From: Nitrosospira sp. Nsp2 | Lineage (GTDB): Bacteria; Pseudomonadota; Gammaproteobacteria; Burkholderiales; Nitrosomonadaceae | NCBI RefSeq assembly: GCF_003050965.1 | Contig: NZ_QAOU01000001.1 | Span: forward strand, 806,001 to 870,000 | Direction: 5' to 3' | Length of the DNA stretch: 64,000 nt | Shown: in pieces, positions 8,763 to 60,804 of the stretch | Position numbering within the stretch: position 1 is the first letter of the stretch | How the letters are laid out: every line of letters starts with the position of its first letter | Notes under the pieces: generated by a model | What the model was told of the DNA's origin: nothing | Seen by the model: the letters and a program-made list of their open reading frames with translations, nothing else | The model's database searches: none | Position numbers and translations under genes: made by a program

Positions 8763-9815
8763 TTATTGCGCTTGCCGGCTTGAAGAAAAAAGATCCCAGG
8801 CTGCCATAAACAAAGCGGCGATCACGGGGCCGATGACAAACCCGGTTAGCCCGAAAAGAACCATTCCTCCAAGGGTGGAGATAAGAACCATGTAATCGGG
8901 AATTTGAGTGTCAGCGCCGACGAGTATGGGCCGCAGGATATTATCCACCAAGCCTATAACGAATATTCCAAAGACGATAAGAACTGTTCCTTCGAAGATC
9001 GCTCCGGTAAGAAGGAAGTAGATTGCGACGGGTCCCCAGACTAACCCCGCCCCAATTGCCGGCAACAGGGAAAGAAAAGCCATTACCGTCCCCCACAACA
9101 CGGCCCCCGGAATTCCTAGAAACGCGAATATCACGCCTCCCAGGGCGCCCTGCAATGCAGCCACGGCAATGTTGCCCTTTACGGTGGCACGGACAACAGT
9201 AGTGAACTTGCTGAACAGGTGCCGCTTGTGTTCCGGGTGTAGCGGGATAGCAAGTCTTATTTTCTCAAATACGATGTTTCCATCTCGCAACAGGAAGAAC
9301 AGCAGATAGAGCATGACGCCAAAGCTTACGATGAACTCGAATGTATTTTGTCCGATCTTTAGCCCTTCCACGGCGATGAGCTGAGTTTCCTGGGCGGCGC
9401 CGTTTGATAACGTATCTTTTGCTTCTGAAAATTTTGCCAATCCGGCGCCATCGAGGAGATTGACGATCCATGGGGGTAGCATGCTGATCGCCTGATGGAA
9501 ATATGTGCCAAATTTCAGCTCCCCGGAGCTGATTTTCTGATAAAACGCGTGGCCCTCATGCAGGAGCGACGTTGTAATGAATGTCGCGGGGAGGATCACA
9601 ATGACGAGGCAGAGCAGTAGCGTTGCAAACGCAGCGAGGTTCTCCCGTTTGGGTATCAGGACCAGCAGACGCCGGTAAAACGGCGTAAACATGATGGCCA
9701 GCACGCACGCCCAGAACACGGCACCGTAAAACGGTAGCAGTATGGTGCCGAATGCCACGGACACGGCAACTAACAGGAGCAGGAAAGCTTTATGCTGAAG
9801 CTCGGTCGAATTCAT
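8763..9815 (-). CDS. AI-2E family (YdiK-like) membrane transporter
   Basis: 350 residues with the pattern of the AI-2E transporter family: paired membrane helices at the N-terminus (about 8-45), two further helices near 60-85, a long soluble stretch (about 85-150), then a compact group of helices with the glycine-rich 'GALGGVIFAFLGIPGAVLWG' and 'LPAIGAGLVWGP' regions, and a final pair. Members include exporters of autoinducer-2 and Na+/H+ antiporters, but most are of unknown substrate, so the transport role here is open. It lies 81 bases downstream of a phospholipase-D lipoprotein gene on the same strand and may be co-transcribed with it. Confidence 0.88.
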   Translation of the reverse strand: MNSTELQHKAFLLLLVAVSVAFGTILLPFYGAVFWACVLAIMFTPFYRRLLVLIPKRENLAAFATLLLCLVIVILPATFITTSLLHEGHAFYQKISSGELKFGTYFHQAISMLPPWIVNLLDGAGLAKFSEAKDTLSNGAAQETQLIAVEGLKIGQNTFEFIVSFGVMLYLLFFLLRDGNIVFEKIRLAIPLHPEHKRHLFSKFTTVVRATVKGNIAVAALQGALGGVIFAFLGIPGAVLWGTVMAFLSLLPAIGAGLVWGPVAIYFLLTGAIFEGTVLIVFGIFVIGLVDNILRPILVGADTQIPDYMVLISTLGGMVLFGLTGFVIGPVIAALFMAAWDLFSSSRQAQ

Positions 9816-9896
9816 GAAATCCCGATTAAAATGAGAATATTTCCGGCTGCGCCACTTGCTTGTTTCGGTGCTGAGCTTTCAGAGCCAACCAATCGA

Positions 9897-11252
9897 TCAA
9901 ATCCAGCGGGCGAGCAGGCGCGCGCCGAATTCTTTCAAGCGCGTGACAATGGAGCGCTGCCGCCAGTGTTCCAGCGTGACAAGATGGGAAGCCTCCATGT
10001 CGTTGTCATACATGGCTTTCATCTGCTCGCCGAACTCTTGACTTACAACGATGGCGTTGATCTCCTGGTTATGCGCGAAGCTGAGCCAATCGAGATTACT
10101 CGAGCCTATGGTGGACCAGACACCGTCGATAAGCGCTGTCTTGGCATGCAACATGGCATCCTTGCGTTCATAAATTTTTACTCCGGCGCTTAATAATTCG
10201 TCGTAGTACGAATGCGAGGCATAAAAAACAAGATTGGAGTCGGTCTCGTCCGGGAGCAGCAGTCGCACGTCGACATTGCGCCGCGCCGCGTTTCGCAAGG
10301 CGGCCAGTAAACGCGCGTCAGGCACAAAGTATGCGTTTGTCACATACGCATAGGTTTTCGCGCTATCGATCGCCGATAGGAGCGTCACGTAAATCGGGTT
10401 ATGCGGCTGATCAGGGGAGCTGCCGATAACCCTGACTATTTCGGTGCCTTTCTTATCGATCCGCGGGAAATAGGAGGCCCAATCGAGAGATTTTCCGTTC
10501 TGCTTGAGCCAGGTGGCCGCGAACAGTTTCTGAAACTCCCGGACGACAGGGCCCTCGATACGCATATGTGTATCGCGCCAGGGCTTGGCCCCTTTCTCAG
10601 GTGGCTTCGATCTGAACGAGCCGCTGGAATACACGCTGCTGATATTTACCCCCCCTACGAACGCGACCTGGCCGTCCACTACGAGTAGCTTGCGGTGATC
10701 GCGTCCCATCTCCCACTTCTTGCGTATCAGCAGAGGATTGAGGGGATTGAACTCCAGCACGTTCCCCCCGGCATCGATGAGAGACCTGAAGAATTCTTCA
10801 GGCGTACTTGCAGAACCGACGCTGTCATAAACGAGGTTCACTTGCACCCCTTTCTTTTGCTTCTCCAACAGGGCGTCGGCGAAGCGCTGCCCGACTTCGT
10901 CATTCTCGATGCTATAGGTTTCCATGTTGATGTTGCTTTTGGCGTCTCGTATTGCTGCATACATGGATTTGTAAGTAGCGGGTCCGTCAAGCAGCAACGT
11001 CACCTTGTTACCAGTCGTGAGAGGGCTTTCGGAGATTTCCTCTACCTGTGCAAGGTGTTTGGTAAAAATGTCTGTTTCTGCGCTCCCGTTTTTACGGGCC
11101 AGCACAAGCTCGCTTTGCCGGGCGGAAAGCGCGCCGCGCGTCCCTTCGACGCGCACGGCAGGGCTCGTGTCCTGAGTATTGCGGGGTACTGGCAGCGAAC
11201 CACAACCGACCAGCAGAAACCCGCAAACAACTGTTACAAACCGTCCTCGCAT
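9897..11252 (-). CDS. Phospholipase D-like lipoprotein (cardiolipin synthase type)
   Basis: 451 residues. The start at 11252 follows AGAGGGAG and opens a lipoprotein signal peptide with lipobox LVGC, so the mature protein should be membrane-anchored. Two HKD motifs are intact: HRKLLVVD beginning at H186 and HAKTALID beginning at H369, each followed by a glycine/serine-asparagine turn (GGVN and GSSN). This two-domain layout is that of cardiolipin synthases and related phosphatidyltransferases. Transfer of a phosphatidyl group between phospholipids is likely, although a phosphodiesterase role cannot be excluded. The frame is open upstream to 11453, but that region has no signal sequence. The AI-2E-family permease gene follows. 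Confidence 0.88.
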   Translation of the reverse strand: MRGRFVTVVCGFLLVGCGSLPVPRNTQDTSPAVRVEGTRGALSARQSELVLARKNGSAETDIFTKHLAQVEEISESPLTTGNKVTLLLDGPATYKSMYAAIRDAKSNINMETYSIENDEVGQRFADALLEKQKKGVQVNLVYDSVGSASTPEEFFRSLIDAGGNVLEFNPLNPLLIRKKWEMGRDHRKLLVVDGQVAFVGGVNISSVYSSGSFRSKPPEKGAKPWRDTHMRIEGPVVREFQKLFAATWLKQNGKSLDWASYFPRIDKKGTEIVRVIGSSPDQPHNPIYVTLLSAIDSAKTYAYVTNAYFVPDARLLAALRNAARRNVDVRLLLPDETDSNLVFYASHSYYDELLSAGVKIYERKDAMLHAKTALIDGVWSTIGSSNLDWLSFAHNQEINAIVVSQEFGEQMKAMYDNDMEASHLVTLEHWRQRSIVTRLKEFGARLLARWI

Positions 11253-19215: not shown

Positions 19216-19857
19216 ATGCTTAATACCATGGGAGAGCGGCAAAAGCAGTTGCTTAAACTGCTACGAGGAAAAAGGCCCGGCATGAGTGTCGATGAGTTGG
19301 CGAAGAGCCTGGAAATCACGCGTAATGCCGTCAGGCAACATCTCGCCTCTCTTGAGGGAGCAGGGCTGGTAACGGCCGGGAAGACCCGTCCATCCGGCGG
19401 GGGACGGCCACAGCAACTTTACGTCCTGACCGAGCTTGGTAGAGAAAGTTTTCCGCGCCAGTATTCGTGGCTTGCGCAGTTGGTGGTGGCATCGGTGCAG
19501 CAGGAGGAAGGCTCCGAGAACATGGGCAAGCGTTTGAACGACATCGGCGTCGGCGTCGCTCAGCAGATGCGCAGCCAATATCCTAATCTAAAGACGCATG
19601 AGGAAAAGGTCGACAAGCTGGCTGAGGTTATGGACCAACTCGGCTACAACGCAAAAAAGACTACCATGCCCGACGGCGAGACGGTGATTGAAGCGGATAA
19701 CTGCGTGTTTCACAGGATGGCGATAAAAGACCGCGAGATTTGCCATCTGGACAAGGGCATGATGGAGACTTTTACCGATAGCCAGGTCAAGCACGATGAA
19801 TGCATGGCCGAAGGCGGAGATTTATGTCGATTCAGATTCTCCCCGAAAAAGGAGTAG
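19216..19857 (+). CDS. SufR-like winged-helix regulator with cysteine cluster
   Basis: 213 residues. An N-terminal winged helix ('MSVDELAKSLEITRNAVRQHLASLEGAGLV') is followed by 'GRPQQLYVLTELG', as in the DeoR/ArsR-like SufR group. The C-terminal half has cysteines at 163, 176, 196 and 204 in an arrangement resembling the iron-sulfur-binding domain of SufR, the repressor of Fe-S cluster biogenesis genes. It therefore probably senses iron-sulfur or redox status. No suf or isc gene is adjacent, so its targets are elsewhere, and the name is a family resemblance only. The gene has its own promoter-like region. Its stop codon is built into the terminator stem. Confidence 0.78.
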   Translation: MLNTMGERQKQLLKLLRGKRPGMSVDELAKSLEITRNAVRQHLASLEGAGLVTAGKTRPSGGGRPQQLYVLTELGRESFPRQYSWLAQLVVASVQQEEGSENMGKRLNDIGVGVAQQMRSQYPNLKTHEEKVDKLAEVMDQLGYNAKKTTMPDGETVIEADNCVFHRMAIKDREICHLDKGMMETFTDSQVKHDECMAEGGDLCRFRFSPKKE

Positions 19858-21136: not shown

Positions 21137-21607
21137 TTATCGCCGGGACGCATTAGCAGTGTTGAGTTTGGATTCCGTATCGGAGTTTTCCTTGAGTCGG
21201 GACGCAATTCTACGATGGGTATCTGCTTTTTTGGCATCTGCCTCCGCGGCCTGCTCGTACTTGCGTATCAATGCCGATGCGTGTGATTGAAGATCCTGCG
21301 CTTTTTTACCGTAAAGATAGCTCTTGTTTTCGTATTGCTCCAGTAACAGCTTGTGCTCCTCAGCCTTTGCCCGCAGCTCCGCAGCGGAATCCTCGTAATA
21401 CTTGGCTACGGTCTCATGATTCTTGCTGGCCGCAGCTTCAAATTGTGTCGGTGAAACTATTGCATGGCTGTTTTGCGCGAGGTCAATACGTTTGGCGGCA
21501 TGAGCACCCAAGTCCTCCGCACCTGCAACCGGGAGTGGACCTGCAATCACCAAGCCCAGCATGAATAATATCTTAAGAGTTCCAGGATTTTGTCGCGCTT
21601 TATTCAT
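21137..21607 (-). CDS. Secreted coiled-coil protein, YYE/YLYG paralog 1
   Basis: 156 residues. The signal peptide (MNKARQNPGTLKILFMLG...PVAGA) is followed by a divergent linker and then a long helical region with 'NHETVAKYYEDSAAELRAKAEEHK', 'LEQYENKSYLYGKKAQDLQSH' and 'LIRKYEQAAEADAKKADTHRRIA' stretches. The two genes upstream on the same strand encode the same blocks. The product is expected in the periplasm as a coiled coil. I do not know the family's function. The ATG at 21607 has no good ribosome binding site (only GAAGGG 12 bases upstream); the longer frame to 21661 would need a TTG start and lacks a signal peptide at its beginning. It is probably the last gene of a tandem array. Confidence 0.78.
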   Translation of the reverse strand: MNKARQNPGTLKILFMLGLVIAGPLPVAGAEDLGAHAAKRIDLAQNSHAIVSPTQFEAAASKNHETVAKYYEDSAAELRAKAEEHKLLLEQYENKSYLYGKKAQDLQSHASALIRKYEQAAEADAKKADTHRRIASRLKENSDTESKLNTANASRR

Positions 21608-21797
21608 AAGGAGGTGCCCTTCGCCATATTCTGGTGCACGTGAAATGGGATGTGAGCGCAAAATGGCAGGGGGCTAGCCATCTGTTGACTGTTTGCTAAC
21701 TAGGGTTTGCGGAGCTGATTATCTGCTACTAAGGCGGCTACAGGCAATGCTGTATCCCGCCTTAGACAGTATGAAACAAATCGGGTTCAAATGCCAG

Positions 21798-22184
21798 TTA
21801 TCTGACGCTCAACCGCTGTCCTGAAGGGTTTTGTTCCTCAAGTTGCAAGGCCATCTGGTGATGCAACTCAGCTTCTTTCATGCTGGCTTGTGCTTCTTTT
21901 TCGTACTTGCGCGCCAAGGCCTCGGTATGGGCTTGCAGATCCTGAGCCTGCCTGCCATAGAGATAGCTATGGTTTTCGTACTCATTCAACAACTCTTTCT
22001 GTTCCCGCTGTTTTGCCTGCATCTCCTTGGCTACTTCCTGATAGTACTTTGCAACTACCTCATGCTCATGCGCTGTTGACGCATTTTGAAGGGCGGAGTT
22101 AACGTCAAAGGAGAACGCAGGTGAGCTCAGCGCGGCTAACAGGCCGAGCAAAGATATACTGGTAACAATTTTTCCGGCTTTCAT
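21798..22184 (-). CDS. Secreted coiled-coil protein, YYE/YLYG paralog 2
   Basis: 128 residues. The start at 22184 follows AGAGAGGTG and opens a signal peptide ending ALSSPAFS. The mature protein is almost all predicted helix with 'HEHEVVAKYYQEVAKEMQAK', 'LLNEYENHSYLYGRQAQDL' and 'ALARKYEKEAQASMKEAELH', the shared core of the triplet. It is rich in E, K, Q and A with regular hydrophobic spacing, so a periplasmic coiled coil is likely. Its own sigma-70 promoter lies at 22268-22296 with consensus-like boxes. The function is unknown; a structural or envelope-stress role is a guess from localisation only. Confidence 0.82.
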   Translation of the reverse strand: MKAGKIVTSISLLGLLAALSSPAFSFDVNSALQNASTAHEHEVVAKYYQEVAKEMQAKQREQKELLNEYENHSYLYGRQAQDLQAHTEALARKYEKEAQASMKEAELHHQMALQLEEQNPSGQRLSVR

Positions 22185-22267
22185 GATCACACCTCTCTGA
22201 CTTTGGTTTCTCTGACGGAATTGCTGCATGTCTGTTCTTTCTGTCTTTTCGAGCTACCATGGTGTGA

Positions 22268-22296
22268 AGAATACACAAATATCCACACTTTGTCAA
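22268..22296 (-). promoter_or_regulatory. Sigma-70 promoter of paralog 2
   Basis: On the minus strand TTGACA (22291-22296) is separated by exactly 17 bases from TATTCT (22268-22273), about 85 bases upstream of the ATG. The sequence upstream of the -35 box is conserved with the corresponding region of paralog 3. Confidence 0.7.
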
Positions 22297-22465
22297 CTTA
22301 CTTATGTATAAAGTATGGATAGGGGCCGTCCCCGATATCGCTGTAACACAGGCGTGAGGTTTATTTTCAGGCGAAAAAATAGGAGGATCAGCCGAGGCTG
22401 CCCCCTATCTTCCCGTGTCGTTGTTTGATCGTTTGACTGTATTGCTGAGCTGGCTTGCTTACCCG

Positions 22466-22900
22466 TTACTGCGGCAGACTGTTGTCACGAGGAGGCTCAT
22501 TCGCAACATTAAAAGCCTTTGCGCCGGGTTCACCGGAGCTGTCGCCGAGCTGGGCAGCCATCTGCCGATGCACCGCCGCCTCTTTGCTGCTGGACTGTGC
22601 TGCTTTCTCGTATTTACGCAGTGCCGCGCTGGCTCGGGACTTCATATCTTCGGCATTCCTGCCATAGAGGTAGCCCTTGCTCTCATACTCTTCAAGCAAC
22701 GATTGCTGTTCCGATGCCTTTACCTGCGCCTCTTTGGCCGCATCTTCATAATAATTTGCCACCGCCTCATGATCGCTTCTGGTTTTGGCGCTCTTAACGG
22801 CTGCGTCGATATCGAAATTTTCCGCTGCGCCTGCAAGCGGGCTCGCCGCAGCAAAAACGGCAAGCAGGGAAAAAGTAGCGACAATTCTGGGGAGGTTCAT
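22466..22900 (-). CDS. Secreted coiled-coil protein, YYE/YLYG paralog 3
   Basis: 144 residues. The signal peptide ends near ASPLAGA, followed by 'DHEAVANYYEDAAKEAQVKA', 'LLEEYESKGYLYGRNAEDM' and 'ALRKYEKAAQSSSKEAAVHRQMAA', aligning without gaps to the two downstream paralogs. The three genes are in the same orientation with 190-280 bp between them, each with its own signal peptide, so this is a tandem amplification that has diverged. The C-terminal tail after the helix (about 25 residues) is unique to this copy. A separate promoter lies at 22994-23022. Confidence 0.82.
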   Translation of the reverse strand: MNLPRIVATFSLLAVFAAASPLAGAAENFDIDAAVKSAKTRSDHEAVANYYEDAAKEAQVKASEQQSLLEEYESKGYLYGRNAEDMKSRASAALRKYEKAAQSSSKEAAVHRQMAAQLGDSSGEPGAKAFNVANEPPRDNSLPQ

Positions 22901-23328: not shown

Positions 23329-24002
23329 ATGAACGCTGGCGTGCAGGAAGCGAAAGACGGAATATCACCAAATGTCGAGCCGGGAAGAGCGACGGGTGGG
23401 TTGAAAAAAACAAGCGCTGCCCTGATTTTTCTCTGCATTTATGCCACTCATACCAATGCCGCAGGTACTTTCAGCATAGAGCCGCGCATAGATGACTTCA
23501 ATACCATTGGTTTTCATGAGGGCCAAGTCTTTACTGTTCCTTCGGCAGACGCCACGGTGGATATCAGCCCGGGCGTGAGTGGGATCTTGTCGTATACCTG
23601 GACTAACACCACTGGAAAGCTCGAGTTTCTTGACGTAACAGCACATTTTCAGACCAATACAGCACGGCAGGTCTAGTAGGGATTGGTCCAGCGGATTTGA
23701 TTAGTGTTCCCCTCCCATCGGATCCCGTGGGTGGACCGGAGATAAGCCATACTGAAACTGCCGCCTTTAACCAAACATTTGGCCCGCCCTTCTCATTTGG
23801 CGTCGGGACCCACTCCATAGGCGTGACCATTTTTATGCAGCCAACTGCAACACCTAATGAAGCTTTCGCTATTCAACCCTCCTTTTCATTTGCTGTTCAG
23901 GTGGTTCCAGAACCAGAAACCTACGCGATGTTTTTAGCAGGTCTCGGGCTTATAGGGTGGAGAATGCGGCGATCAAAAAAGTACCAAACTACACCGATAT
24001 AA
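23329..24002 (+). pseudogene. PEP-CTERM protein gene broken by a frameshift
   Basis: The first part (from 23329) has an internal hydrophobic signal segment and a beta-rich body reading '...LDVTAHFQTNT' before a TAG at 23674. The neighbouring frame continues '...TAGLVGIGPADLISVPLPSDP' through to a complete PEP-CTERM signal (VPEPETYAMFLAGLGLIGW-x-MRR) ending at 24002. The two halves join in the region 23655-23675 if one base has been lost, so this is one gene of about 225 codons with a single frameshift. It is either a true pseudogene or a sequencing error in the assembly. Function of the body is unknown. Confidence 0.75.
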
Positions 24003-57041: not shown

Positions 57042-58901
57042 TCATGAATGCTGAACAGTGGATGAAGTGCCCGTTTGAAGCAAGGTGGCGAACGCCTCTG
57101 CCACTACCGGGCGGCTGAAATAATAGCCCTGGCCCTCATCGCAGTGCTGGGCTATCAGAAATGCACACTGCTCTGCTGTTTCCACTCCCTCCGCGATAAC
57201 GCGGAGCTTCAGGCTTTTACCCATGCCGATCACGGCACTGACAATCGCGGCATCCTCTGCGTTACTGGTCATCCGGTTGACGAATGATTTATCGATCTTG
57301 AGCGTATCAACTGGAAATTGTCGCAAGTAACTCAGACTGGAATAGCCGGTGCCGAAGTCATCGATTGCGAGCTTCACGCCCAGATCCGTGAGCGCATTCA
57401 GCACCGGATTTGTCACCGTCGCATCTTTCATAAGGACGCTTTCAGTCAGTTCGAGCTCCAGGTAGCGCGGCTCTAGGCACGTATCATTGAGCGTTGTGCC
57501 TACGTATTCCGTAAAGTCTGTTGCGCTGAACTCTCGCGCGGATGTGTTCACCGCGACGATGATCGGCGGCAGGCCAGCATCCAGCCACGCTCGAGCCTGA
57601 AGACAAGCTTCACGCAGTACCCAGCGGCCTATAGGAAGGATGAGGCCGGAGTCCTCGGCGACGGGTATAAACTCAGACGGCGGCACCAACCCTCGTTCCG
57701 GGTGCTGCCAGCGAATGAGCGCCTCGACTCCAATGATCATATTGCTCTGAAGATCTATTTTTGCCTGGTAATGCAGGACGAACTCCTGTCGCTCAAGTGC
57801 CCGGTGCAGGCGGGCCTCGATCGATTGCCGTTCGACGGCTCGAACATTCATGTCCTGCACGAAGAATTTGTAATTGTTACGTCCGCTCTCCTTGGCATGA
57901 TACATCGCGCTATCGGCGCTTTTGAGCAGAGTCTCCGCATCCCGTCCGTCCGAGGGATAAGTTGCGATGCCAATGCTTACCGATAAGTGAAGCTCATGCT
58001 GATCAACGTCGAATGGAACAGTTAGCGCAGCCAGTATCTTTTGCGCGCTGATCGCCGCATTTTCCGCCTGTTTGATATTTGAAAGCAGTATCACGAATTC
58101 ATCGCCACCCTGGCGACTGGCGGTATCGGAGTGACGTACGCAAGCCAGCAGGCGTCGGGCGACCGATTGCAGAAGCTGATCGCCCACCGCGTGCCCCAGA
58201 GAATCATTAATGTGCTTGAATCGATCCAGATCCATGAATAACAAGGCTATTTGCGTGCCTTGACGACTGGCCAGCTCGATCGCCTGGACGAGACGGTCAT
58301 GCAGGAGCATTCGGTTAGGTAAACCGGTGAGAGCATCGTGATGCGCCAGATGATCCAACTGCGTTTTAGCGCTTTCAACTTGTTCGACCAGTTTTCTCGC
58401 TTCGATTGTGGCGACGACCAAGCGCGCGTTCGCTTCCTGCAATACTTTTATACGGCCCGACGCGACTTGCGTCTCTCCTAAACGGGCTTCCCGCTCTTGG
58501 AAGGTCGCACTTTCACGCACATGGGCTTCCCCTTCCCGTATCCCGGCCGCTACCTCGCGCAGACGCGCGGCTTCTTCACGCAAGAGGGCGGCACCTTCGC
58601 GCAGGTTGGCGGCATCTTCGCGCAAATAGGCGGCATCTTCACGGAGGAAGGCGGTGTCTTCCCGCATGTTGGCCGCATCCTCGCGCGAATATGCGGTGTC
58701 TTCACGCAGATCTGCTGCCTCTTCCCGGGCAGCGACCGACGTCTCGCGGTTTGAAAGCACTGTCTCACCCCCGGCGACGGCGCTTTCCCGGCCTGTAATT
58801 GTTTCTTCGTGAATATCGGGCATCTCATCAGGCATGTCTGGTAAATCCTGTTGACCTGAGCCTTCAGTACCTGGGGTGCCTTCATTGTCATGTTTATTCA
58901 T
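57042..58901 (-). CDS. GGDEF-EAL protein with N-terminal heptad repeat tract
   Basis: 619 residues. After a 40-residue acidic head comes a tract (about residues 55-130) of roughly ten repeats of the seven-residue unit [A/N/Y/F]-L-R-E-[D/E/G]-A-A, probably a long single helix. A coiled coil (about 140-190) leads into a GGDEF domain with intact signature at 265-269 and an EAL domain with EAL at 393-395, 'ELTESVL', 'DDFGTGYSSL', 'KIDKSFV' and 'AEGVE' present, so both c-di-GMP synthesis and breakdown are possible. There is no sensory domain. Its ATG overlaps the stop of the KaiC-like gene (TAATG), so it belongs to that operon and may be controlled by the ATPase. Confidence 0.92.
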   Translation of the reverse strand: MNKHDNEGTPGTEGSGQQDLPDMPDEMPDIHEETITGRESAVAGGETVLSNRETSVAAREEAADLREDTAYSREDAANMREDTAFLREDAAYLREDAANLREGAALLREEAARLREVAAGIREGEAHVRESATFQEREARLGETQVASGRIKVLQEANARLVVATIEARKLVEQVESAKTQLDHLAHHDALTGLPNRMLLHDRLVQAIELASRQGTQIALLFMDLDRFKHINDSLGHAVGDQLLQSVARRLLACVRHSDTASRQGGDEFVILLSNIKQAENAAISAQKILAALTVPFDVDQHELHLSVSIGIATYPSDGRDAETLLKSADSAMYHAKESGRNNYKFFVQDMNVRAVERQSIEARLHRALERQEFVLHYQAKIDLQSNMIIGVEALIRWQHPERGLVPPSEFIPVAEDSGLILPIGRWVLREACLQARAWLDAGLPPIIVAVNTSAREFSATDFTEYVGTTLNDTCLEPRYLELELTESVLMKDATVTNPVLNALTDLGVKLAIDDFGTGYSSLSYLRQFPVDTLKIDKSFVNRMTSNAEDAAIVSAVIGMGKSLKLRVIAEGVETAEQCAFLIAQHCDEGQGYYFSRPVVAEAFATLLQTGTSSTVQHS

Positions 58902-60388
58902 TACGGTCTTCCTGTGTCGATTCCCTGTCCAAGCGAGACAGCAGGATGCCCGGACATGATTCCGTCATATCCGGACAAGGTCTTGCCGATAACTATGCCT
59001 TCCTCTGTTACATCAAACAATCGAATGTCCTTGCTGTGCTCGCTGCCCCGGACTTTAACAACCGACAGGACACGTTTGAGCTGCCCCATGATTTCGGTAT
59101 AGCGCTGCACGATAATCGCATCGGCGAGAAAAGCGCTTCCAAACGGGCTGAAGCGCAGGTCGGTGAAGCGGTCTTCCAATTCCGACGTCATCAGGATGGT
59201 CACGCCCATGCCCGTCAGCTTGCCAATCATCCTGTACAGCGATCCGCGAAAATCTTCGCTAAACTCAGGCGCGAGCGCCAACTCAAATCCGGACAGAGAG
59301 TCAATGACAAGGCGCTTCGCTCCTACCCGGTCAATCATGTCGACCATATCATGCAGGATTTCATCAATCGAATAATCCAGCGAACGTATGGCAAGCGATT
59401 CAACCTGCCCCGTGGCGAAAAGCGACGCCAGCTTGGTGCTCAGCAGCTGGCTAGGGCTCTTCTCGAACGCCGCGATAATCCCCCGTTCGCCCATGCGCGC
59501 GCCTTCAGCAAGAAATTCCGTCGCAAATATCGTTTTGCCGGACCCAGATGGCCCGACCACGAGCAACGAATATCCAGCCGGCAAACCGCCCCCCAGCATT
59601 TCGTCCAGGCCAGGTATTCCCATGGAAAGACGTTCAGCAGGGGCGAATCGCTTCTTCTGTGACTCAATCTCTTTTTTTGGTTCGATAACCGCCCGCGGGA
59701 AAATCTCGATTCCTTTGTCATTAATTCGGAACGTGTGCAGACCTTGTGCCTGAGCTTGACCCCGCATTTTGACTACCTGCAGCTTGCGTACCGCGGAATT
59801 GCGCTGCAGGTTCTGGGAAAGCCATAGGATGCCATCAGCTACGGTAAAGACAGGGCTTGACTCTGTTTCTGGCGTCAAGTATTCACCGATCAAAAACGTT
59901 GTTGCCTGCCAGCTGGTCATTTGCATGCCCAGCTGCTGGATGAACCGTTGAAGTTCGGATACGCCCTGTCCTGCGACCTTAGCTGACTCCACCACCGAGC
60001 GAAACGAATCCACGAATACGAGGCTGGGGCCATAGTTTCTTACTTCTTCGGCAATGCGCGACAAAACCCGGTCAAAATTTCCCTCGGTCAGCTCGGCAGC
60101 CAGGTTGATGAAGCGAACGCATTCATTGATTTTATTGACGTCGAAAAACTGGAATTGCTGTTGATAGCGGAGCATTTTCAAGGCGGGCTCTCCAAGTACC
60201 GTGAAAAACAATGCTCGATTATCTGAATTTGCCAGGGAGAACATGATTTGATGAGCGAGCGTCGTTTTTCCGGTGCCGGGGGTCCCCGCTATCAGGTTAA
60301 ACGAGAATTCCGGCAGGCCTCCGCCTAGCAGGTTGTCCAGGCCAGGTATCCCCGTCTGAAGCCGACGTATGCTAAGCTTTTCACTCAT
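58901..60388 (-). CDS. KaiC-like double-domain ATPase
   Basis: 495 residues with two RecA/KaiC-type domains in tandem. Each opens with GIPGLD-x-[LM]-L-GGGLP and has a Walker A: GTPGTGKTT from residue 35 and GPSGSGKT from residue 279. The second domain keeps a Walker-B-like 'KRLVIDSLSGFELA'. This is the architecture of KaiC and of the KaiC-like ATPases widespread outside cyanobacteria; no KaiA or KaiB gene is adjacent. The start overlaps the upstream small gene by ATGA and the stop overlaps the GGDEF-EAL gene by TAATG, so the three are one translationally coupled operon. A signalling switch acting on c-di-GMP turnover is inferred. Confidence 0.92.
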   Translation of the reverse strand: MSEKLSIRRLQTGIPGLDNLLGGGLPEFSFNLIAGTPGTGKTTLAHQIMFSLANSDNRALFFTVLGEPALKMLRYQQQFQFFDVNKINECVRFINLAAELTEGNFDRVLSRIAEEVRNYGPSLVFVDSFRSVVESAKVAGQGVSELQRFIQQLGMQMTSWQATTFLIGEYLTPETESSPVFTVADGILWLSQNLQRNSAVRKLQVVKMRGQAQAQGLHTFRINDKGIEIFPRAVIEPKKEIESQKKRFAPAERLSMGIPGLDEMLGGGLPAGYSLLVVGPSGSGKTIFATEFLAEGARMGERGIIAAFEKSPSQLLSTKLASLFATGQVESLAIRSLDYSIDEILHDMVDMIDRVGAKRLVIDSLSGFELALAPEFSEDFRGSLYRMIGKLTGMGVTILMTSELEDRFTDLRFSPFGSAFLADAIIVQRYTEIMGQLKRVLSVVKVRGSEHSKDIRLFDVTEEGIVIGKTLSGYDGIMSGHPAVSLGQGIDTGRP

Positions 60389-60804
60389 TTTTGGAACTCC
60401 TCGCCAGTGTAATTCGAAATGTCAGTGCTCCAGGCCAAACATAAAATACGGGTTGTTAGCTGCTCGCCAATTAGTGAGGCCAGGATGTCGGTGAAAGTGA
60501 TCAGCAGCAGGTTATTTGCTTCGCTAACTTGCGCGGGTGTCTGTTTCTTGAAGCTCATTTTTAATTCTGCCAACCCTTGTTTAGCCTGCAACTGATCCGA
60601 GGCGACAGAAAGCCAGGGAAATACCGCACGATGCAGGAATATGGTTCTTGCATAAAGCGAATTGAAACCGTCTTCGCCGACGATCGAAATGATTTCGCGT
60701 GCCATCGGCTCCCACAAGCTGATCGCAGCATCCGCGATCTTCTCATCGGACTCTACCAGCAGGCTTTTAATTAACTGGTGCCGCGGGAGCTCATTGGATT
60801 CCAT
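60385..60804 (-). CDS. Small helical protein encoded before the KaiC-like gene
   Basis: 139 residues, predicted all-helical, starting MESNELPRHQLIKSLLVESD. It includes 'AAISLWEPMAREIISIVGED', 'LYARTIFLHRAVFPWL' and 'NNLLLITFTDILASLIGEQL', suggesting a four-helix bundle. There are no membrane segments or cysteine clusters. Its TGA overlaps the ATG of the KaiC-like gene. No family is recognised by me. By position it may be a dedicated partner or regulator of the ATPase, in the place where kaiB would be expected in other systems, but it shows no KaiB thioredoxin-like pattern. Confidence 0.78.
   Translation of the reverse strand: MESNELPRHQLIKSLLVESDEKIADAAISLWEPMAREIISIVGEDGFNSLYARTIFLHRAVFPWLSVASDQLQAKQGLAELKMSFKKQTPAQVSEANNLLLITFTDILASLIGEQLTTRILCLAWSTDISNYTGEEFQK

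Follow-up and report, generated by a model that had tools for sequence, protein, structure and literature searches.

Copper enzymes are essential to bacterial ammonia oxidation, and periplasmic copper handling in ammonia oxidisers is incompletely mapped. CusF, SilE and PcoE, the small periplasmic copper/silver proteins of the Cus, Sil and Pco islands, are the described proteins which the family reported here, an undescribed family of exported helical hairpins, would most resemble in its working. Three adjacent members lie in the window, the whole 64-kb stretch of Nitrosospira DNA under analysis. Proteins of one branch of the family, the copper-island clade, share with CusF, SilE and PcoE their small size, export, candidate His/Met ligands and a place in copper/silver efflux islands beside CusCBA and CopA. 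They differ in forming an all-helical hairpin instead of the CusF fold, in being lipoproteins in many cases, in their genus-wide expansion, and in that their metal binding is putative; CusF (PF11604) has its own gene in these islands, and the hairpin family includes no CusF member by sequence. PmoD/AmoD (PMC6189053) are likewise a multi-copy family with a link to copper, found in methane and ammonia oxidisers, but PmoD is a CuA protein of cupredoxin type that carries a membrane helix at its C-terminus, whereas the proteins described here are helical hairpins and the triplet carries no conserved Cys. The LIC_10421 / LIC10421-LIC12816 family (NF047526, NF047569) also consists of short exported proteins and gives a weak full-length match (best E 2.5e-4); membership was rejected because the score of 21 bits falls far below the cut-off of 100. 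WXG100 / ESAT-6 proteins are helical hairpins of ~100 residues with an aromatic-rich turn containing Gly, but they show no significant fold or sequence match to the hairpin family, whose export is of the Sec or lipoprotein type. Nitrosomonadales are rich in copper-related proteins according to a survey of Betaproteobacteria, and the hairpin family is not among the categories of that survey turned up by a term search (PMC6769254). Highly expressed uncharacterised proteins have been described in N. multiformis (PMC5960693).

An earlier note on this DNA had proposed that three exported helical paralogs lie in tandem, and the reading frames bear it out. P0003 (22466..22900, 144 aa), P0002 (21798..22184, 128 aa) and P0001 (21137..21607) all lie on the minus strand, and the span 21137-22900 is bounded exactly by the P0001 stop and the P0003 start; counted from its ATG at 21607, P0001 has 156 aa, and the TTG start chosen by the ORF caller makes it 174 aa. 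Each protein has a signal peptide (signal peptides and lipoboxes were called by eye throughout) and a YLYG block, and pairwise identities are 43-47%. In the order P0003, P0002, P0001, the first shared motif reads HEAVANYYE, HEVVAKYYQ and HETVAKYYE, the YLYG block LLEEYESKGYLYG, LLNEYENHSYLYG and LLEQYENKSYLYG, and the third motif LRKYEKAAQ, ARKYEKEAQ and IRKYEQAAE; P0003 has an H-R-Q-M-A end. The shared pattern first described for these genes is thus found in all three, except that P0002, with RKYEKEA, breaks its RKYE-x-A-[AQ] element. Intergenic gaps of 281 nt (P0003-P0002) and 190 nt (P0002-P0001) make the arrangement unlike a tight operon. The similarity represents homology rather than chance, since the closest paralog pairs match at E ~1e-30 and the three genes score 149-169 bits against the family profile over their full length (signal peptide, two helices and turn).

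The triplet genes are old and under constraint. Set against the orthologs of L132 (same species) and L039 (Nitrosospira sp. Nsp14), they have dN/dS values of 0.06-0.34, which indicates purifying selection. The duplications, which the earlier note had left to be dated by phylogeny, are old, because dS among the three paralogs is at or beyond saturation and each of the three has an ortholog in a second species.

AlphaFold2, run on P0002 with 30 aligned members, predicts helices at residues 38-71 and 79-118 (pLDDT ~92-98; mean pLDDT 85, pTM 0.70), with the YLYG motif as the turn of a two-helix hairpin. The helices assumed in the original description as coiled coils are confidently predicted, and antiparallel two-helix hairpin is the better term for their shape. 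Besides the start Met, H41 and H108 (P0002 numbering) are the sole invariant residues in 30 members, Gammaproteobacteria included. Both histidines are present in the triplet together with the glycine-ended aromatic turn, the features by which members are recognised. Counting outwards from the turn pairs position 41 with ~109, and the two histidines should therefore lie face to face where the modelled hairpin opens. In helix 1 a conserved core stripe that includes H41 is supported (p 0.013); in helix 2 the stripe falls short of significance (p 0.09).

Searches for the family find 12 full copies and three fragments in the window's own genome, on contigs C1, C2, C3, C4 and C6. The description of the family as locally amplified holds for the tandem triplet, but the amplification is genome-wide and family-wide, with nine further full copies elsewhere (C2, C4, C6). 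Members occur in 100 of the 125 genomes of the taxonomic family, and copy number in the genus varies from 3 to 24 matches. Beyond the taxonomic family they are sparse: 26 of 399 genomes of an order-level sample contain members (10 of these 26 belong to the window's own taxonomic family), as do 7 of 369 in a class-level sample (5 of them outside it), and a phylum-wide sample adds two marginal matches. Fragments and copies with in-frame stops occur in the family. The earlier note could not assign the proteins to a described family, and searches of Pfam, NCBIfam, PHROGs and PDB sequences uphold this: triplet members and relatives match no Pfam or NCBIfam model at the cut-off, these two collections and PHROGs giving sub-threshold coiled-coil noise only, and PDB gives no match by sequence. 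By fold, Foldseek returns generic hairpins from PDB, all at E > 0.7, and a literature search found no paper naming the family.

The triplet is sited between genes of the pentose-phosphate pathway, as reported before: pgl (6-phosphogluconolactonase, PF01182; 19961..20674) on one side, gnd (6-phosphogluconate dehydrogenase, PF03446/PF00393; 24036..24941) and tal (transaldolase, PF00923; 24982..26097) on the other, all on the minus strand and all conserved neighbours, pgl with synteny in L128-L132. Beyond pgl lies a plus-strand gene for a SufR/ArsR-like winged-helix regulator (19216..19857; PF08279, PF01022 and PF18546, with TIGR02702 below cut-off), which in relatives adjoins a further family lipoprotein gene. 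The order gloB, tal, gnd, one to three family copies, in places DoxX, pgl, the SufR-like regulator and a family lipoprotein gene is kept in Nitrosospira relatives (L128-L131). Between gnd and pgl there are three copies in the window's own species, the same three-gene cluster in Nsp14, and one or two copies in others. The siting had been called unusual; it is rather an inherited syntenic address in Nitrosospira, and does not speak for a pentose-phosphate role. Such a role for the triplet was rejected because the synteny is inherited and other copies have unrelated neighbours. In a FastTree phylogeny built on few columns, with many weak forks including deep ones, P0002 and P0003 cluster with other residents of the gnd-pgl locus, and P0001 falls in a pgl-locus clade in which the HExxxxYYE segment is doubled in the other members. 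This grouping suggests that the locus probably held two ancestral copies and then gained one. Between P0003 and gnd, on the plus strand (23329-24002), a PEP-CTERM-type protein (..VPEPETYAMFLAGLGLIGWRMRR) seems split over two frames and is possibly a frameshifted pseudogene.

The most widespread branch of the family, the copper-island clade, is found in Nitrosospira, Nitrosomonas and gammaproteobacterial methanotrophs. The nearest plasmid-borne relatives are from Methylomonas and Methylobacter, and in all five methanotroph plasmids (Methylomonas DH-1, EFPC1, LL1 and koyamae; Methylobacter YRD-M1) the gene adjoins a heavy-metal RND operon; in one of the five it is also near merR-merT-merP. A weak match in Variovorax has genes for a metal P-type ATPase, a copper-binding protein and a heavy-metal sensor in its vicinity, and other families of the window's order show similar linkage (L152, L154, L156). 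In 12 Nitrosomonadaceae genomes, which are related to one another, a family gene lies no more than 10 kb from 12 of the 43 CusA/CzcA-type pumps (TIGR00914, not all of them copper pumps); 4000 circular shifts give an expectation of 2.4, and none reached the observed count, several rows of profile A3 having been drawn from loci picked for their pumps. The figure for other RND pumps in these genomes is 3 of 53, against 3.2 expected. Copper-clade genes account for most of this linkage: 9 of 12 have a heavy-metal RND pump within 10 kb, where 0.29 are expected (0/4000 shifts). Among the remaining 111 family genes, 12 are near pumps at 10 kb against 2.9 expected (p 0.007), and at 5 kb there is no excess; the weak excess at 10 kb (p 0.002-0.007) is partly inherited, the genomes being related. 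Copper linkage of the whole family in its strong form was therefore rejected, as one clade holds most of the signal. One copper-clade gene (G064, L191) is an exception in having no metal genes nearby.

The islands hold CusF (PF11604, with WPxMTM), CusC, CusB, CusA, CopA and one to three family genes, a set that is not complete in every island. The copper-clade proteins are mostly lipoproteins, and in most the lipobox is followed by (P)HPMDM, a plausible candidate set of Cu(I)/Ag(I) ligands. The window's own genome has a copper island at C2:364-385 kb, with one copper-clade gene at C2:384.5 kb; the CusB of this genome (L144:7304-8947) has a C-terminal CusF-like domain in addition to the separate CusF gene. 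At their head, copper islands carry a conserved gene for a small exported Cys/His-containing protein whose signal region includes LWLPLQGA (L144:4709-5182, L133:16488-16898, L138:2424-2843, L140:6200-6580), and the one copy searched against Pfam has no match.

The triplet lacks the lipobox, the HPMDM segment and the His-Cys motif, and falls outside the copper-island clade, in a Nitrosospira-rich half of the tree (FastTree, with weak deep forks). Neither the PF11604 model nor the WPxMTM motif matches the triplet, and the whole 64-kb window gives no match to CusA, CusB, CusC, CopA or the CusF motif; no metal-efflux gene was recognised there, and none of the RND permease matches of the genome falls within it. 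Regulation sets the triplet apart as well. Seven of the 12 full paralogs of the genome, along with members in Nitrosomonas and a third genus, have in common a promoter block, CTAAGGGTTTCCCTTAG-N-ATAAAACCAGGGTTTCCCCAATATAC, placed ~92-115 nt upstream of the start codon. It is sharply bounded and contains a 7-bp dyad, CTAAGGG-TTT-CCCTTAG, with a second GGGTTTCCC 23 nt on; in L120, L121, L123, L124, L125, L006, L078-L082 and L084 it lies upstream of family genes, at a distance of ~97 nt. Strict matches number 41 in 1.36 Mb of partly redundant DNA, and the only one not upstream of a listed family gene (L189) is, by position, upstream of another family copy. The block is missing from the triplet, where the best fits have 15-19 mismatches of 36; pieces of 300 nt taken at random from the window get down to 16. 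P0002 has a predicted sigma-70-like promoter, TTGACA-17-TATTCT (22268..22296, minus strand), a consensus match only, whose sequence recurs at the paralog at C2:354 kb. The triplet thus belongs neither to the copper-island clade nor to the dyad group, and keeps the histidines. Genes for a NarX/NarL-like two-component pair, sensor kinase and response regulator, adjoin several dyad-bearing family lipoprotein genes or fragments (L120:5073-6566, L144:14035-16835, L146:15789-18251, L126:4648-7076), a position that makes their products candidate regulators of the dyad genes. Another frequent neighbour of family genes and fragments, in other genera too, is an outer-membrane beta-barrel-like family (..GGWINGG..; L121:5744-7066, L081, L127:6088-7515 and 9231-10700, L143:6350-7558), one copy of which was searched against NCBIfam and had no match.

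Tentatively, the most probable reading of these results is an exported hairpin family of which one clade is an accessory of Cus-type copper/silver efflux, and the triplet a Nitrosospira-specific offshoot with the hairpin/His-pair function retained. The family, marked by a Sec signal peptide or lipobox, the YLYG-type turn and the two invariant His, has radiated in the ammonia-oxidising Nitrosomonadaceae. Since its most widespread branch adjoins copper-efflux pumps, it probably aids metal handling in the cell envelope of these copper-dependent bacteria; we infer metal binding, with copper as the ion. The copper-clade proteins would most likely act as envelope-anchored hairpins that bind or buffer Cu(I)/Ag(I) beside CusF, CusB and CopA, with the N-terminal HPMDM segment and the two histidines at the hairpin's open end as putative ligands. 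The triplet would comprise free, soluble periplasmic proteins at an inherited, Nitrosospira-specific locus, most likely keeping the hairpin/His-pair function, in metal or envelope-stress buffering, under different regulation. That the triplet as a derived, constrained branch has a metal role of its own is doubtful.

The chief rival, itself a substantial possibility, is a general envelope protein: structural or stress hairpins that pack, space or chaperone components of the periplasm and outer membrane and are induced by several stresses, with the copper clade as one recruitment and the histidines as structural residues. Most paralogs are indeed away from metal genes, their neighbours vary (porins, two-component systems, transaldolase), promoter classes differ, and the many copies have divergent tails. 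It is harder to reconcile with how strongly and specifically the widest clade is linked to Cus islands, across different classes, and with the two invariant residues both being His rather than core hydrophobics. An improbable reading is that of a lineage-specific paralog expansion whose function is dispensable or decaying, with most copies, the triplet included, of little effect; the fragments, the copies with in-frame stops and the range of 3 to 24 copies within the genus are what it would predict, yet the dN/dS of the triplet, the kept synteny and the promoter block kept across genera in other copies all speak against it. A WXG100-like secreted hairpin is more improbable by far. Several ESAT-6-type hairpins of similar size are among the top Foldseek matches, as expected for any helical hairpin, but membership was rejected, as all E-values exceed 0.7, no sequence match exists, and signal peptides or lipoboxes are present by eye.

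An extended form of the copper-accessory reading, which we consider rather unlikely, envisages a new class of envelope copper-handling hairpins in Cus/Cop islands of several proteobacterial orders, amplified in ammonia oxidisers, partly co-regulated through the GGGTTTCCC dyad and forming a periplasmic metal-buffering layer, with the triplet as a specialised branch. If it were true, copper-dependent nitrifiers would possess a dedicated metal-buffering layer in the periplasm. The family, which lacks a database model, numbers about a dozen copies per genome and includes a clade tied to copper efflux in several genera and classes, offers concrete candidates for copper handling, and H41, H108, HPMDM and the promoter element are defined targets for tests. 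Apart from the hairpin genes, the window carries a KaiC-like ATPase gene set (57042-60804), and a set of the same kind recurs at C1:292-297 kb (L126:2539-7076), where it adjoins a two-component system and two family fragments.
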